Assembly: GCA_947311115.1 (NCBI GenBank)
Contig: CAMZKE010000079.1
Location: forward strand, 1 to 38,365
Direction: 5' to 3'
Length of the DNA: 38,365 nt
From: an uncultured Bacteroidales bacterium
GTDB lineage: Bacteria; Bacteroidota; Bacteroidia; Bacteroidales; JAFGXI01
The notes beneath the pieces were generated by a model. That model was given only the letters and a program-made list of their open reading frames with translations. It searched no databases and was not told the origin of the DNA. Shown here piece after piece: positions 1-38,365 of this stretch. The first letter of the stretch is position 1. Each line of letters starts with the position of its first letter. The position numbers and the translations under genes are program-made.

Positions 1-12
1 AAACCATGCCGC

Positions 13-56
13 TGTATATGAATACTGCAAATGGTTTGCAACGAAGTATCAGGAAA
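13..56 (+). repeat. Intergenic repeat block B, copy 1
   Basis: About 46 bases that match 13144-13190 with roughly eight differences. The core is a small hairpin, TGCAA / TTGCA around a 5-nt loop. In both places the block lies next to a strong hairpin (81-102 here, 13193-13223 there). No coding potential. I do not know the family; it looks like a dispersed intergenic element. Confidence 0.6.
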
Positions 57-80
57 AGAAAAATGTATATTGAAAAATAT

Positions 81-102
81 AATCACCCAAAATTGGGTGA
101 TT
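81..102. terminator. Perfect 10-bp inverted repeat, terminator-like
   Basis: AATCACCCAA / TTGGGTGATT with a 2-nt AA loop. Read on the minus strand it is followed by ATATTTTTC, a weak T-tract; on the plus strand by TTTGGGTTTT. No gene ends beside it within the window, so the transcript it would stop is not clear. Bases 103-280 hold no gene that I can see apart from repeat block A at 160-177. Confidence 0.4.
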
Positions 103-159
103 TGGGTTTTGTGATAACCGTTTGTTTATAAACAGATTATAAATAGTATTATTGAATTC

Positions 160-6137: not shown

Positions 6138-6938
6138 ATGAAAACAATTTATTTAATTGCAAGTATGTTGCTTATAAGCACAATAAATTTTGCACAGGAA
6201 TTTACTAAAACAACAAGAGAAGTAACTAGTTTTAATTCAATAAAACTAGAATGTTCGGCTGATATTTATGTTACGCAAGGAAACGAAATATCTGTGGTAG
6301 TTGAAACTGAAGCAAAAAATCAAGATAAAGTAAAAACAATAGTAAAGGCAAATACTTTAATTATTGATATTGATGCCAAATTTTTTAAATCTAAACGATT
6401 AAATGTTTACGTAACGGTTAAAGATTTATCGCAAGTAAAAAATAATGGCTCAGGTGATTTTGAATTTAAAACTCCATTAAAAACAATTGATTTTTTATAC
6501 ACAGGAAATGGTTCGGGTGACTTTGAAATAAATAAAATTATTACAAATAAATTTATTGCAAATATAAACGGTTCGGGCGATTGTGAAATATCTGGCGATA
6601 TTAAAGAGATATATGTTGAACTAAATGGTTCGGGCGATGTTGAAGCTGAAAATATAAATCTGATAAATTGTAATATTATAATGAATGGTTCGGGCGATGT
6701 TGAGCTTAAAGGTATGTCTAAAAATATTAAAATTAAACAAACCGGTTCTGGCGATTTTGAGGGTGATAAATTTTCGGTATTAAATGCAATTGTTGTTAAA
6801 ACAGGTTCGGGCGATGCCGATTTAAATGTTAAAAATGATATTAACCTAACAAGTACAGGTTCTGGTAGCTTTAATTTAAAAGGAAATCCTGCAAAACGAA
6901 GCATTAATGTTACCGGAAGTGGTAGTTTTAACGAATAA
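6138..6938 (+). CDS. Secreted GIN-domain (DUF2807) beta-helix protein
   Basis: 266 residues with signal peptide 1-19 (...INFA|Q). It belongs to the 'head GIN domain' family (DUF2807), annotated as a putative autotransporter adhesin head but of unproven function. From about residue 97 to the end it is a regular ladder of GSGD or GSGS turns, nine in all (seven GSGD, then two GSGS), each followed by a beta strand such as FEFK or VELK about 20-25 residues apart. This is the pattern of a right-handed beta-helix. The codon repetition also leaves a long open antisense frame, which is an artefact. A weak promoter-like TACTTTG lies at 6066-6072. It stands alone between divergent gcdH and lpdA. Confidence 0.88.
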   Translation: MKTIYLIASMLLISTINFAQEFTKTTREVTSFNSIKLECSADIYVTQGNEISVVVETEAKNQDKVKTIVKANTLIIDIDAKFFKSKRLNVYVTVKDLSQVKNNGSGDFEFKTPLKTIDFLYTGNGSGDFEINKIITNKFIANINGSGDCEISGDIKEIYVELNGSGDVEAENINLINCNIIMNGSGDVELKGMSKNIKIKQTGSGDFEGDKFSVLNAIVVKTGSGDADLNVKNDINLTSTGSGSFNLKGNPAKRSINVTGSGSFNE

Positions 6939-13143: not shown

Positions 13144-13190
13144 TGTATATGAATATTGCAAGTGGTTTGCAACAATGTATTAGGTAAACA
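13144..13190 (+). repeat. Intergenic repeat block B, copy 2
   Basis: It matches 13-56 with about eight differences and contains the mini-hairpin TTGCAA-GTGGT-TTGCAA. It abuts the terminator of the minus-strand gene that ends at 13247. Confidence 0.6.
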
Positions 13191-13192
13191 AA

Positions 13193-13223
13193 AAGCTGAA
13201 TTACAATGCGTGTAATTCAGCTT
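13193..13223 (-). terminator. Terminator of the T9SS propeller-protein gene
   Basis: A perfect 13-bp stem AAGCTGAATTACA / TGTAATTCAGCTT with a 5-nt loop, followed on the minus strand by TTTTTGTTT. It lies 24 nt after the stop of the gene at 13247-14767. Confidence 0.85.
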
Positions 13224-24517: not shown

Positions 24518-24590
24518 AATGAATTTAATTGCCGTAAGCAAACTAGGTATTATTATGTCCAAGAGGGAAATTAGACCTAAACAAATTAAA
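24518..24590 (+). repeat. Double-hairpin repeat family C, internally deleted copy
   Basis: 73 nt. The left end (AATGAAT), first hairpin (TTGC-CGTAA-GCAA) and right end (AAACAAATTAAA) match the 97-nt copies at 37551 and 38247, but about 25 nt of the middle are missing. The right end overlaps the 3' end of the SpoU methyltransferase gene, whose stop codon (24586-24588) lies inside the terminal ATTAAA. Confidence 0.65.
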
Positions 24591-28926: not shown

Positions 28927-29020
28927 AATGACTCTCCTCACCGAAAGTGAATGATGTATCATTATGGAAAACAATATTTAATACGCTCAAGTACAGGGAA
29001 TTTATCCCAAACAAATTAAA
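28927..29020 (+). repeat. Double-hairpin repeat family C, diverged copy
   Basis: 94 nt starting 3 nt after the stop of the PD40/OmpA gene. It aligns end to end with the 97-nt copies: AATGACTCTCCTCACCG at the left, TATCATTATGGAAAAC in the middle, and CCCAAACAAATTAAA at the right. The first hairpin is kept in altered form (TCAC-CGAAA-GTGA), which shows compensating changes; the second is lost. Confidence 0.7.
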
Positions 29021-32837: not shown

Positions 32838-35800
32838 ATGAAAAATATATTTGTAATATTATTATTTTTATTCAGCATATCCAATATCTATTCTCAAGCA
32901 TATTGGAATAATGTATCTGTTTCACCTCTCGAGATTTGTTTAGGTGATTGTGTTGACCCATTTTCTGATGGCGGCAATGCTACTATTCTAATGAATAACG
33001 ATTTTAATAGCGGTTCTATCGGTTCCGGTTGGTCTTCAAATTCTGCACAATTCGATAATCCTTGTACTTCAACCGGTGATAATTGGGATGGAACCACATA
33101 TTTATGGGTTGGACCCGCTGCTTCTTTCCCCAGAGATTTAACAACTGTTGGTTTTAATGTTACTTCAGCATGTCAAATTTGTTTCGATTTTAAAATGGCA
33201 ACTCAAGGAAATAGTTCACCTTGCGAAGGACCTGATGAAGCAGACGAAGGAGTTTCATTACAATGGAATAGTAATGATGGAACGGGCTGGCACGATATTA
33301 CTTATTTTTGTCCTGATGGAAATGAATATTCATCGAATAATGGGCAGGGTGGAAGCGGAGGTTATTCCGGACCATTCTTAGTATGGGATAATTATTGTTA
33401 CAATGTTCCTGCTGCCGCTGCAGGAAATAACACTCAATTTCAATGGCATCAAAACCTAGTTACAGATAATGATTACGACCATTGGGGAATAGATAATGTT
33501 TTTATTAATTGCCCACAACCAAACGTATCCATAACTTGGAACGATAGTAATAATGGTGACTTTTATTGGGATGCAGACCCACCTCAACAATGTCCTACAC
33601 AAAACACAACCTATACAGCTACTATTGATGATGGCATAGGTTCTGATGTAGCAACATTTGATGTTATAGTATATCAGCCACCAACATTAGATATTCAAGG
33701 TTTAGCTCCTGCGTATTGCATGGCACAATCAGCTGTTGCTATGACAGGCTTACCTGCAGGCGGAACATTTTCCGGACCCGGAGTAACGGGTAACCAATTT
33801 GACCCTGCAACTGCAGGATTAGGAAATCATACAATTACTTATGATTGGGATCAACTTGATTCGCAAGGCAACGTATTATGTTCGTTCAGTACCACAACAA
33901 CTGTTATTGTTAATAATGGCCCAACAGCCGATTTTACTGTTGTAACACCATTATGTACAGGTACAAACACTACTATTACTTACACAGGTACAGGTTCATC
34001 ATCGGCTAGCTATTCTTGGAACTGGGGAGGCTTGGGAGTAACTCCGGGTACAGGACAAGGCCCCCATACAGGAACTGCTGCAGCCGGAACATATACTATA
34101 AGTTTACAAGTAACAGAAAATGGATGTACAGGAAACCCTGTTTCTCATGATATAGTATTTAATTCATATCCTACTGCTAATGCAGGTGTCAATGATGATA
34201 TATGTGGATTAACATACACTATGGATGCAACACCAAGTATTGGTACAGGTACATGGTCTCAAACAGCAGGAACCGGAACAAGTACTTTTACAACACCAAC
34301 TTCTGCTAATTCAGATGTAACAGTTACAACATACGGAACATACACTTTTCAATGGGAAGAAAACTCTAATACTTGTATTGATAACGATGATGTTGATATA
34401 ACATTTTGGGAAATACCTGTTCCTAATGCAGGAACCGATGATGCAATTTGTGGGCTAAATTATACTTTAGCTGCTATACCAACAGTTGGCACAGGAACAT
34501 GGACTGCCAACCCATCAACAGGAGTTAGTTTTTCTAATATACACTCAGCTACATCTGATGTTTCAGTATCTACAGAAGGTATATACACCTTTACATGGAC
34601 AGAAGAAAACGGACAATGTATAGCATCTGATGATGTTGTAATTGAGTTTATTGAAATCCCTGTTGCAAATGCCGGCTCCACGAATATAGATGTTTGTGGA
34701 CCTGATTACACAATGACAGCTATACCTAGTGTAGGTACAGGAACATGGACAGCAAATCCAACTACTGCTAATTTTACAAATGTGAATAATGCAACTTCGG
34801 GAGTTTCTGTAAGTGCCTATGGAAGTTATAATTTTACTTGGACAGAAGCAAATCAAATATGCACTGATAATCAGACAGTAACAATAAATTTCTATGAAAT
34901 ACCAACACCTAATGCAGGTGTTGATGATGTTGTTTGTGGACCTGATTATACGTTAAACGCAACAGCTTCGGTAGGAACAGGTGTGTGGACTACAACAAAC
35001 GGTGCAGCTACAATATCTAATCCTAATCAAGCAAGTTCAAATACAACTGTTAATTCTTATGGAACATATACATACACTTGGACAGAAAATAATAATGGTT
35101 GTATCACTTCCGATGATGTAGATATTACGTATTATCAAATTCCAACTTCAGATTTTTCTGCATCAATAATTAACTGTTTTGAAGATAATTCAACAGTAAC
35201 ATATAATGGTAATGCAAGTTCATCAGCAACTTATACTTGGGATTGGGATTCAGGAAATGCAACACCGGGAAACGGACAAGGTCCTCATAACGTAAATTGG
35301 TCGGTTGCTAATACTTATACAATAAGTTTACAAGTTACCGAAAACGGATGTCAATCTCCAATTACTACTCACGATGTAATTAATCCTGAATTACTAACAT
35401 CAACAGCAAGTTCAACAGATATTTTATGTTTTGGTGATGCAAACGGAACATTAACAGCTACCCATAATGGAGGAACTTTTCCATATTCAGTTTTATGGAG
35501 CAATGGAGAAACAACATTAAATGTTGATAGTTTAAATGGTGGTAATTATCAGGTTAGCATTACTGACGGTATGGGTTGTACAACAACTTCAATAGCGGTT
35601 ATAAACGAGCCTACAAAATTAGAATTATCTCCAATAGAAAATTTCTTTGTATGTAATGGGGCTTCTGTAAATGCTCAAGCAAATGTAACAGGCGGAACAC
35701 CAAGTTATATATATTATTGGGACGATGTTCAATCATCAAATTCTTCTTTCACAGAACACCCGGTAATTGCTAATTCAACACATTGTGTAAAAGTTGTTGA

Positions 35801-36899
35801 CCAAAATAATTGTGCAGATAGTCTGTGTTTTAATATTTCGGTAAGCGAACCTGTTGTTTTACAATTATATGCAAATACCGATAGTGTTTGTCCTAACGAC
35901 CCTATTCTTGTAACAGCAAGTATTTCGGGAGGTATTGGTCCTCCATATATGGTAACAGATTATAATACTGGCGATGTAGTATCGCCTCCATATATAATAA
36001 ATCCTACGGAAAATGGAGAAATAATTATGGTTGTTGAAGATGGTTGTGGTTCAAGAGACACAAGTTCGGTAAAAGTAAATTTATATCCTTTACCACCAAA
36101 TAATTTTGAATCTGATATTCAATCAGGATGTCAGCCATTACCTGTATCGTTTATAGAAACAAATAATGTAAGCGGAAATACTTACATTTGGGACTTTGGT
36201 GATAATTCAACAGATAACTTATCATTATCAAAAAATCCTATACATATTTATAATATACCAGGAGTTTTTGATGTAACATTAACTGTAACTTCAGATAAAG
36301 GTTGTAAAAATATACATACTATTCCTAGTTATATAAGTGTTTATCCTAAACCTATTGCTAAATTTCTTTTTGAACCAAAAGTTGCTACTATAGTGAAGCC
36401 AACAGTAACATTCGAAAATTTATCAACTTTAATAAATTCTGCATTATGGGATTTTGATGATGGCGATTCATCTTCATTAATAAATCCTACACATAAGTTC
36501 CCAAATATGTATCCGGGTGAATATAATGTTAAATTAATAGCAATGTCCGTTTATGGATGTAAAGATACAGCTACATCATTAGTACCTGTTAAACCGGTGC
36601 CAACACTTTATGCACCAACTGCATTTTCTCCTGATAAAGATAGAATAAACGATAATTTCTTTGTTACCGGTACAGGTATCGACCCTGAACAATTTACCCT
36701 TAAAGTATATGATAGATGGGGTGAGGTAATATGGGAATCTCATACATTTAATGTTGATGAAGGTAAATCTGATGAATGGAATGGTGTTGCTAAAAATAAT
36801 AAAGTTTGCCAAAATGGTGTATATACTTGGGTGGCAATTTATATTGATGTCGAAGGAAATCAACAAGAATTTTCCGGCACTATTTCGTTAATAAAGTAA
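32838..36899 (+). CDS. Giant cell-surface protein with PKD and SprB repeats, T9SS type B sorting domain
   Basis: 1353 residues. Signal peptide 1-19. The first 230 residues include a MAM-like/jellyroll domain (about 50-215, ICFDFKMATQG ... HWGIDNVFINC). Then come two PKD-like units with WDWDSG or WNWGG and the phrase TYTISLQVTENGC (about 360-445 and 770-845) that flank four copies of a repeat of about 80 residues opening NAGxxDxxCGxxYT and closing with YTFTWTE (starts near 448, 524, 607 and 688). A SprB repeat (about 855-930), further Ig-like domains, two PKD domains (about 1097-1245) and the type B sorting domain (about 1254-1353, PTAFSPDKDRIND ... YDRWGEVIWES) follow. It is probably a T9SS-exported adhesin or gliding-type filament; ligand unknown. 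Ends at the terminator at 36961. Confidence 0.93.
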   Translation: MKNIFVILLFLFSISNIYSQAYWNNVSVSPLEICLGDCVDPFSDGGNATILMNNDFNSGSIGSGWSSNSAQFDNPCTSTGDNWDGTTYLWVGPAASFPRDLTTVGFNVTSACQICFDFKMATQGNSSPCEGPDEADEGVSLQWNSNDGTGWHDITYFCPDGNEYSSNNGQGGSGGYSGPFLVWDNYCYNVPAAAAGNNTQFQWHQNLVTDNDYDHWGIDNVFINCPQPNVSITWNDSNNGDFYWDADPPQQCPTQNTTYTATIDDGIGSDVATFDVIVYQPPTLDIQGLAPAYCMAQSAVAMTGLPAGGTFSGPGVTGNQFDPATAGLGNHTITYDWDQLDSQGNVLCSFSTTTTVIVNNGPTADFTVVTPLCTGTNTTITYTGTGSSSASYSWNWGGLGVTPGTGQGPHTGTAAAGTYTISLQVTENGCTGNPVSHDIVFNSYPTANAGVNDDICGLTYTMDATPSIGTGTWSQTAGTGTSTFTTPTSANSDVTVTTYGTYTFQWEENSNTCIDNDDVDITFWEIPVPNAGTDDAICGLNYTLAAIPTVGTGTWTANPSTGVSFSNIHSATSDVSVSTEGIYTFTWTEENGQCIASDDVVIEFIEIPVANAGSTNIDVCGPDYTMTAIPSVGTGTWTANPTTANFTNVNNATSGVSVSAYGSYNFTWTEANQICTDNQTVTINFYEIPTPNAGVDDVVCGPDYTLNATASVGTGVWTTTNGAATISNPNQASSNTTVNSYGTYTYTWTENNNGCITSDDVDITYYQIPTSDFSASIINCFEDNSTVTYNGNASSSATYTWDWDSGNATPGNGQGPHNVNWSVANTYTISLQVTENGCQSPITTHDVINPELLTSTASSTDILCFGDANGTLTATHNGGTFPYSVLWSNGETTLNVDSLNGGNYQVSITDGMGCTTTSIAVINEPTKLELSPIENFFVCNGASVNAQANVTGGTPSYIYYWDDVQSSNSSFTEHPVIANSTHCVKVVDQNNCADSLCFNISVSEPVVLQLYANTDSVCPNDPILVTASISGGIGPPYMVTDYNTGDVVSPPYIINPTENGEIIMVVEDGCGSRDTSSVKVNLYPLPPNNFESDIQSGCQPLPVSFIETNNVSGNTYIWDFGDNSTDNLSLSKNPIHIYNIPGVFDVTLTVTSDKGCKNIHTIPSYISVYPKPIAKFLFEPKVATIVKPTVTFENLSTLINSALWDFDDGDSSSLINPTHKFPNMYPGEYNVKLIAMSVYGCKDTATSLVPVKPVPTLYAPTAFSPDKDRINDNFFVTGTGIDPEQFTLKVYDRWGEVIWESHTFNVDEGKSDEWNGVAKNNKVCQNGVYTWVAIYIDVEGNQQEFSGTISLIK

Positions 36900-36960
36900 T
36901 TTAAAAATAACCGATAATGAACATAAAGAAACAGGAAATGTGACAGTGATATACTAATAA

Positions 36961-36991
36961 AAAAAAAGCCTGAATTATTTCAGGCTTTTTT
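36961..36991 (+). terminator. Terminator after the giant surface-protein gene
   Basis: AAAAAGCCTGAA / TTCAGGCTTTTT with a 4-nt loop; 14 or so pairs counting the A-T flank. Confidence 0.88.
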
Positions 36992-37083
36992 ATGCTAAAA
37001 AATATGCTAAAAAATAGCTTTTAAAAAAGAAATAATTTATACTTTCGTGAAGAAAATAATTAATAATTAAAAAACGAATTATA

Positions 37084-37464
37084 ATGAATATTCCGGCAGA
37101 TTTAAAATACACAAAAGACCACGAGTGGGTAAAAATTGATGGTGATACAGCTATTGTTGGTATTACAGACTTTGCTCAAGGCGAATTAGGTGATGTAGTT
37201 TTTGTTGAGATAGAAACTGAAGGCGAAACTTTAGAAAAAGAAGAAACTTTTGGAACAATTGAAGCTGTTAAAACAGTATCTGACATGTTTATGCCTATTT
37301 CAGGTGAAGTTGTTGAGATAAACGAAAAATTGGAAGATTCTCCAGAAGTAGTAAATCAAGACCCATACGGAGATGGTTGGATGATTAAAATTAAAGTTTC
37401 TAACGCTGATGAGGCTAACGAATTAATGTCGGCTGATGATTACAAAAATCAGATTGAAGGATAA
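37084..37464 (+). CDS. gcvH: Glycine cleavage system H protein
   Basis: 126 residues, standard length. This lipoyl carrier shuttles the aminomethyl group from P protein to T protein and is reoxidised by dihydrolipoyl dehydrogenase. The opening KYTKDHEWV, ITDFAQGELGDVVFVE and the lipoyl-lysine motif TIEAVKTVSD (Lys63) are diagnostic; the end NPYGDGWM is kept as DPYGDGWMIKIK. P and T proteins are not in the window. It is followed by a truncated and then a full copy of repeat family C and by the terminator at 37661. lplA and lpdA in the same window would service it. Confidence 0.97.
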   Translation: MNIPADLKYTKDHEWVKIDGDTAIVGITDFAQGELGDVVFVEIETEGETLEKEETFGTIEAVKTVSDMFMPISGEVVEINEKLEDSPEVVNQDPYGDGWMIKIKVSNADEANELMSADDYKNQIEG

Positions 37465-37478
37465 AAATATTTTGTATA

Positions 37479-37544
37479 AATGAACCCCCTTGTCATAGGC
37501 GAACTAGGTATTGTTATAGAATAAATATTTAATGCTAGAAGGGG
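37479..37544 (+). repeat. Double-hairpin repeat family C, truncated copy
   Basis: AATGAACCCCCTTGTC at the left with GAACTAGGTATTGTTATAGAATA in the middle resembles the left and middle of the 97-nt copies and the copy at 24518. The right end is missing; the full copy at 37551 follows 6 nt later, so the full copy may have inserted into or next to it. Confidence 0.5.
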
Positions 37545-37550
37545 CAGAAA

Positions 37551-37647
37551 AATGAATCTCCTCGCCGCAAGCGGACGAGGTATCGTTTTGGAATACTATT
37601 CTTTTATACGTCCCAAGGGACGGGGAATTAAACCCAAACAGATTAAA
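37551..37647 (+). repeat. Double-hairpin repeat family C, full copy 1
   Basis: 97 nt, identical to 38247-38343. First hairpin: CCTCG-CCGC-AA-GCGG-CGAGG with one bulged A. Second hairpin: CGTCCC-AA-GGGACG. The ends are roughly inverted (TGAATCTCC at the left, TTTAATCTG on the opposite strand at the right). No ORF. It lies between gcvH and its terminator, so it should be transcribed with gcvH. Confidence 0.9.
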
Positions 37648-37660
37648 CTCTAATAGATTA

Positions 37661-37688
37661 AAATAACCACCAAGGTGGTTATTTTTTT
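37661..37688 (+). terminator. Terminator between gcvH and ssb
   Basis: AAATAACCACC / GGTGGTTATTT, a perfect 11-bp stem with an AA loop, then four more T. Confidence 0.9.
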
Positions 37689-37744
37689 GCGTTTACGTTA
37701 AATAATTGTACATTTATACTTGATTAACATTTAAAACAAAAATT

Positions 37745-38167
37745 ATGGTAAATAAAGTAGTATTAATTGGAAATGTTGGAAAAGACCCAGAAGTACGTTA
37801 TTTAGATAACGATACAGCAGTAGCATCTTTTTCTTTAGCAACATCGGAAAATTATAAAGATAAAAACGGTGAATGGCAAACAAAAACAGAATGGCACAAT
37901 ATAGTTGCTTGGAGAAACACAGCTAAATATGTAGAAAATAGAGTTAAAAAAGGCTTACAATTATATGTTGAAGGCAAACTTACAACAAGAAGTTGGGACG
38001 ATAAAGATGGTAATAAAAGATATACTACCGAAATTGTTGCACATACTATTAGACTGTTAGGTAAACGTGAGGATACAGGTGACTCTACAGTAACTCCTGA
38101 ACCTACTACAAAAGTAGCAGATGCTCCTGTTATTAAAGATACTCCAGATGATGATTTGCCATTTTAA
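37745..38167 (+). CDS. ssb: Single-stranded DNA-binding protein
   Basis: 140 residues. The OB-fold (about 1-105) opens VNKVVLIGNVGKDPEVR and includes SLATSENYKDKNGEW, TEWHNIVAW and LYVEGKLTTRSWDDKDGNKRY. A short linker leads to the acidic tip DDDLPF, which binds partner proteins of replication and repair. Length and tail are normal for a chromosomal SSB. The gene is bracketed by identical 97-nt repeats (37551-37647 and 38247-38343), about 600 nt apart in the same orientation. No terminator is visible right after it. Confidence 0.97.
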   Translation: MVNKVVLIGNVGKDPEVRYLDNDTAVASFSLATSENYKDKNGEWQTKTEWHNIVAWRNTAKYVENRVKKGLQLYVEGKLTTRSWDDKDGNKRYTTEIVAHTIRLLGKREDTGDSTVTPEPTTKVADAPVIKDTPDDDLPF

Positions 38168-38246
38168 CTAGTGGACTTATAGATATTAGTATAATAGATT
38201 TATTCTTTCAAGTTATACGAAAATAAGCTTTCTTGGAGAGTGATTT

Positions 38247-38343
38247 AATGAATCTCCTCGCCGCAAGCGGACGAGGTATCGTTTTGGAATACTATTCTTT
38301 TATACGTCCCAAGGGACGGGGAATTAAACCCAAACAGATTAAA
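38247..38343 (+). repeat. Double-hairpin repeat family C, full copy 2
   Basis: 97/97 identical to 37551-37647, same orientation, 80 nt after the ssb stop. The flanks do not match (T then A on either side versus A then C in the other copy), which fixes the element's ends. Confidence 0.9.
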
Positions 38344-38365
38344 ATTTATCTTGATAATTGGTAAG

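Follow-up and report, generated by a model that had tools for sequence, protein, structure and literature searches.

Near one end of the window (the whole stretch of DNA that was analysed, 38,365 nt), a 140-aa ssb gene is bracketed by two 97-nt repeats at positions 37551–37647 and 38247–38343. The initial annotation had described these repeats as identical, equally oriented and set in differing flanks. Identity and orientation were confirmed, with a spacing of 696 nt and ssb lying between the copies, and flank comparison confirmed that their surroundings differ. In each repeat, six of the 97 nt (ATTAAA, or TTTAAT on the minus strand) are target sequence and the mobile unit is 91 nt, a length too small for a transposase gene. 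On the minus strand, which is the IS orientation of copy 1 (left end, LE, at 37641; right end, RE, at 37551), the sequence reads TTTAAT, then an LE (TTTAATCTGTTTGGGTTTAATTCCCCGTCCCTTGGGACG) with a hairpin, a short spacer and an RE with a bulged-T hairpin. The features of the locus are as follows.

37551–37641, minus strand: young copy 1 of the 91-nt PATE/MITE, identical to the genome-wide consensus
37642–37647, minus strand: target site TTTAAT flanking copy 1 on the left, outside the mobile unit; near-invariant in 75 insertions with differing outer flanks
37609–37622, minus strand: LE hairpin of copy 1, CGTCC-CTTG-GGACG, from sequence and fold; positioned as in LE hairpins of IS200-type ISs
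37624–37632, minus strand: putative LE guide region of copy 1, TTTAATTCC (minus strand), located on the 5′ side of the LE hairpin; in parental ISs, its counterpart base and the target covary
37560–37580, minus strand: RE hairpin of copy 1, CCTCG-(bulged T)-CCG-CTTG-CGG-CGAGG, from sequence and fold; the same bulged-T hairpin is present in the IS right ends of genomes G009 and G210
37579–37584, minus strand: putative RE guide region of copy 1, GATACC; in parental ISs it covaries with the cleavage site at the RE
37551–37556, minus strand: predicted RE cleavage site of copy 1, TTCATT, the element terminus; right boundary in 75 copies
38247–38337, minus strand: young copy 2 of the 91-nt PATE/MITE, identical to copy 1
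38338–38343, minus strand: target site TTTAAT of copy 2, from left-flank conservation in own-genome insertions
37745–38167, plus strand: ssb, 140 aa, bracketed by both copies; an ORF with ssb homologues

The two termini of the element are unlike each other (CTGTTTGGG... versus ...GATTCATT), with palindromes near the ends and no terminal inverted repeats. The "roughly inverted ends" noted initially are therefore not a defining feature, as the ends are dissimilar, the fixed TTTAAT is present on one side only and there is no duplication.

Other features of the window were also recorded. The gcvH and ssb genes are adjacent here (36900–38365) and lie on different contigs with other neighbors in the same-genus genome G001 (L318, L323, L031); this synteny break coincides with an insertion, and no link between the altered gene order and the repeats was seen. 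A 1353-aa ORF at 32838–36899, which is probably a modular surface protein, contains repeats of ~82 codons at 34199–34995 (spacing 246/246/240 nt), and repeats of 57/60 nt are found at 6433–6820 within the ORF at 6138–6938.

Copy number and age of the repeat family

The genome (G000) is represented by a draft assembly of 3.53 Mb in 163 contigs and belongs to Bacteroidales by its closest relatives. The repeat was found at 40 places with 99–100% identity over 96–97 nt, both ssb copies included. The terminal 25-mer gave 120 matches at ≤3 mismatches in the assembly (a reversed-pattern control gave 0), and a profile search of 1.34 Mb also yielded 120 copies and none in the reversed sequence; the 1.34 Mb comprised 80 stretches chosen around copies together with the window, which biases per-base copy numbers upwards. 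The end of the window contig overlaps the start of contig C122 by ~127 nt across copy 2, and the match at C122:10–106 is copy 2 counted a second time; copy 2 itself is real and has its own flanks. The genome carries about 120 copies (one double-counted), with dozens at 99–100% identity. The recent spread of a mobile two-hairpin element, proposed initially from the two ssb copies, is thus supported by a genome-wide search with more than 100 sites.

In the profile search, 74 of the 120 copies reached at least 95 of 110 bits and were classed as young, and the rest formed a continuous decay series, old and young copies representing waves. Three decayed copies are located in the window:

37480–37550, minus strand: decayed older family copy that directly abuts copy 1 (profile 22.7 bits; no match in the reversed window)
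28928–29019, minus strand: decayed family copy (profile 57.1 bits)
24520–24588, minus strand: strongly decayed family copy (profile 18.0 bits; no match in the reversed window)

One young copy was found inside an ORF of at least 300 nt, the others being intergenic. An exact LE match was not found in viral contigs, and a weak 45-nt match in a Pseudomonas syringae plasmid (E 5e-3), near which no transposase is annotated, was taken as chance.

A second, unrelated repeat family of ~215 nt has near-perfect inverted ends (TTAACCCGCATTATTCATG ... CATGAATAATCCGGGTTA) and looks like a classical MITE. The 1.34 Mb contained more than 40 matches to it at 83–100%; they often lie at the ends of contigs, as at the start of the window, and copies of it at C87 and C20 contain insertions of the putatively IS200-derived element. 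Sites of the ~215-nt family are:

Window 5–104
Window 13144–13194
L225:5389–5606
L220:6603–6821

Target site and element boundaries

Across 75 own-genome insertions, six positions of the left flank are a near-invariant TTTAAT (1.7–2.0 bits, with at most three exceptions per position), and the right flank is free (<0.6 bit). An empty site was identified within the genome by comparing the copy on C11 with C49, in which TTTAAT is uninterrupted, with no target duplication; further empty counterparts of insertions exist and are more diverged than C49. Three nested insertions (C62, C159 and the window) have the young copy placed exactly between TTTAAT and an older element, which in the window is 37480–37550. 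Insertions at C36:22341, C46:12192 and C150:~20720 are placed exactly in the loop of strong, terminator-like, near-perfect hairpins. As a general target preference for hairpins or terminators, no difference was found relative to 971 unoccupied intergenic TTTAAT sites (MFE p 0.78). In genome G307, an IS interrupts a reading frame that, when rejoined at the predicted points, reads by eye as a lipoprotein signal peptide. Because of the flanks, the empty site, the split hairpins, the nested insertions and the G307 junction, the mobile unit was defined as 91 nt and the preceding six bases as its target. Classical MITE features, i.e. inverted termini and target duplication, are absent from the own-genome insertions.

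The orientation of the copies follows third-position GC skew (43/64, p 0.008; 33/48 when collapsed per stretch), and coding direction shows no orientation bias (32/64). A first, cruder skew test gave a borderline result (45/74, p 0.08). The test uses contig fragments and assumes that the G-rich strand is the leading strand; if this holds, the bias fits insertion into the lagging-strand template. As evidence, the skew is supportive, not decisive.

The ssb gene is a bystander, and its two flanking copies are ordinary insertions. Recombination between them is possible in principle; we saw no evidence for loss, duplication or regulation of ssb by the repeats.

Related full-length ISs and covariation of their guides

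Among the 99 genomes searched, nine others gave matches to the repeat, and several of these matches were to diverged relatives of the complete layout. Full-length ISs of the form LE-tnpA-RE with these ends occur in other Bacteroidota. In G009, a complete IS200-type element has the reverse complement of the 3′ half of the repeat as its left end, and its tnpA is followed by a bulged-T right-end hairpin. G210 contains five full-length IS copies, with TTTAAT followed by CTCTTTGGGTAAATTCCCCGCCGCTTGCGGCG as the LE and GATACCCCGTCCGCTTGCGGCGGGGAGATTCATT as the RE; the corresponding own-genome ends are TTTAAT followed by CTGTTTGGGTTTAATTCCCCGTCCCTTGGGACG and GATACCTCGTCCGCTTGCGGCGAGGAGATTCATT. TnpA searches, with the G009 protein as a query and then that of G210, retrieved further ISs in the order (15 genomes) and in the phylum sample (nine genomes), and the same LE-tnpA-RE plan was found in ISs of ~20 further genomes, some of them decayed. 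Most IS ends follow a common pattern, T(T/C)TAAT, C.....(A/G)TTCC-hairpin, tnpA, and (G/A)ATACC-hairpin-...TT(C/T)ATT, with the element beginning after the first six bases. The repeat is that end pattern with a short spacer in place of tnpA. The protein of the parental ISs matches the IS200/IS605 transposase family NF033573 with 123 bits (E 6e-36), well over the cut-off of 55, and over the DDHVHFL motif it aligns to solved IS200/IS605 transposases, including ISHp608 (PDB 2a6m). Ends homologous to those of full-length IS200/IS605 ISs, as found in G210, G307, G009 and others, point to a Y1 (HUH) type transposase as the probable mover, as had been suggested at the outset. The accompanying REP/BIME identity was wrong, since the repeat corresponds to the fused ends of an IS200/IS605-family IS.

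The base of the RE guide and the base at the cleavage site covary across the IS genomes (G-C 8, A-T 8, A-C 1, G-T 0; Fisher p 4e-4), with the counts being partly linked by descent and not fully independent. The A-C exception is a single G771 copy, and the other copies in that genome are A-T. At the LE, the guide base is G only with the target TCTAAT (six genomes) and is A otherwise, with T at that target position. The LE targets of a few loci, such as L199, L203, L204, L210, L213 and L303, were read by eye as TTTAAT, the pattern script having misread them. In the TnpA tree, RE types alternate between close relatives (L203 versus L202/L210), as do LE types (L195 versus L207, L196 versus L201 and L206 versus L299), which indicates that guide/site switches were repeated and do not reflect one inherited state. 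This compensatory covariation (C:G to T:A) in the parental ISs suggests that the guides 5′ of the hairpins match the cleavage sites. The rule of paired guide and site is known from structural work on IS608 and its engineering.

Mobilization and alternative origins

With high confidence, we regard the repeat as a transposase-less derivative (MITE or "homogeneous PATE") of an IS200/IS605-family element of the IS200 group that is presumably moved in trans as single-stranded DNA, the ssb copies being ordinary insertions of it. By analogy with the biochemistry of IS608 and ISDra2, TnpA_IS200 (an HUH enzyme with a single catalytic Tyr), acting in trans, would bind both hairpins, and the guides 5′ of each hairpin would base-pair with the cleavage sites. 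The element would then be excised in single-stranded form and integrate 3′ of a further TTTAAT without duplicating the target, the lagging-strand template being the probable recipient.

The recent burst was presumably driven by the cognate TnpA_IS200. The G000 assembly lacks an intact TnpA of this clade, and none was found in G003 and G093, both of which contain related short elements. The three Pfam Y1_Tnp matches in the own genome lie on C81 (a truncated IS200 tnpA), C146 (a RAYT-like gene) and C28 (a Y1 domain inside a longer protein, described below). A full IS was also sought through RE copies that had no listed LE (C123, C133, C159, C75, C143 and others), and all those checked were the short element. 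The parent IS may simply be unassembled, since multi-copy ISs break assemblies; in G210, some IS ends are located at contig ends. The derivation is countered by the fact that parent and derivative with near-identical ends were not seen together in one genome, and no short derivative was found in G210, which harbors the full IS. It is conceivable, albeit unlikely, that the burst was driven by an unrelated host Y1 protein such as the RAYT-like protein of C146, with an ends-only lineage outliving its parent IS and kept by a captured or domesticated transposase.

Mobilization of a REP/BIME element by a RAYT, the origin originally favored, would account for the two hairpins, the intergenic placing and Y1-type mobility, and Bacteroidetes subclass 2.6 RAYTs have been described with "atypical" flanking structures and copies elsewhere in the genome (PMC6006769). 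A RAYT-like gene indeed exists on C146 (L112:1294–1884; NF047646, 62 bits, below the 80-bit cut-off). However, this sole full-length RAYT-like gene has no copy of the repeat adjacent to it or on its 20-kb contig, contrary to the expectation of a RAYT with a matching repeat, and its YIHLNP and NHFH motifs fit subclass 2.1, which is given as lacking REPs (PMC6006769). Moreover, the ends of the repeat match full ISs with an NF033573 transposase, there is no unpaired GTAG/CGTC tag (CGTC occurs only inside the LE stem), and the 91-nt unit contains two palindromes that differ from each other rather than a palindrome of 20–40 nt. We therefore consider this origin very improbable.

Further Y1-like sequences were encountered in these searches. 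The Y1-like domain of C28 (L113, G000:C28:18420–18623) lies within a long protein of restriction-modification/methylase type, beside a repeated GHAPL peptide, and Y1 matches in similarly long frames are present in G001, G003, G089 and G093. Several short Y1 proteins (L168, L178, L187 (G093), L172 and L173) carry a YI.NQ..HH motif like that of subclass 1.2, whose members are described as lacking typical terminal structures; their genes sit among repeated hairpins, e.g. AAGTCCCGTTAGGGACAAAAT or ACCGCGTAGCGGTT.

A structured non-coding RNA or a regulatory cassette (a terminator module, for instance) that gene conversion had spread would be in agreement with the intergenic location of the copies and with the plus strand of the repeat folding better than shuffled sequences (z −2.8). 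An Rfam search of the window returned three tRNAs only, and no family matched the repeat. The precise insertion after TTTAAT in unrelated flanks, the empty site and the ends shared with an IS also speak against such an RNA or cassette. A conserved place by orthologous genes across species, which would have favored it, was not seen (ssb of the same-genus G001 has other neighbors and no copy), and this explanation has almost no likelihood. An assembly artefact at ssb, which might be suspected because the contig ends 22 nt past copy 2 and overlaps C122, is the least credible of all, given that the flanks of the copies differ, that they are two among many across many contigs and that contig breaks are expected at repeats.

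The preferred reading, a transposase-less IS200-group derivative, can be compared with several known systems. Homogeneous PATEs (palindrome-associated transposable elements) of Haloquadratum walsbyi have near-end palindromes and IS605-type-like ends and lack terminal inverted repeats, target duplication and transposase capacity; some families are expanded with >90% identity, and nearly all IS200-type transposases of that organism are pseudogenes (PMC3119063). Like homogeneous PATEs, the element described here is short and transposase-free, with palindromes near its termini and no target duplication. On all points testable here its sequence agrees with the PATE definition (PMC3119063), and it would thus be a PATE family of a known kind. 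For the occurrence of PATEs alongside disrupted IS200 transposases, Haloquadratum provides a precedent (PMC3119063). In contrast to the Haloquadratum PATEs, our element is bacterial (Bacteroidales), 91 nt long and apparently derived from an IS200-group (tnpA-only) element, with a documented TTTAAT target and guide covariation.

IS608 inserts 3′ of TTAC, which is retained in the left flank; the insertion relies on base-pairing to a guide that lies 5′ of the hairpin foot (PMC5934647). IS608 and ISDra2 (PMC5934647) share with our element the subterminal LE and RE hairpins, the (here predicted) guides 5′ of the hairpin foot, the cleavage site at the RE and insertion 3′ of a short, fixed target that remains in the left flank (TTAC and TTGAT in their case). 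Unlike IS608, which carries tnpA and tnpB, our element has no gene and uses TTTAAT, and the parental ISs seen here are tnpA-only. Fused IS200/IS605 ends without a transposase have also been described as a PATE-like IS605 ends-only sequence of Halanaerobium hydrogeniformans, present in one copy there versus >100 here (PMC7290912). REP/BIME elements with RAYTs are likewise high-copy intergenic hairpins tied to Y1 transposases (PMC3733652, PMC6006769), but here there is no repeat-flanked RAYT and no unpaired tag, the two ends are dissimilar and the target is fixed as in IS200.

In summary, the element accounts for the many identical repeats in this genome. It is a well-resolved case, from a bacterium, of an IS200/IS605 ends-only element at high copy number, with its target, boundaries, empty site, nesting and age series. 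In the parental ISs, target and cleavage sites appear to have been re-programmed naturally and more than once, through paired changes of guide and site.
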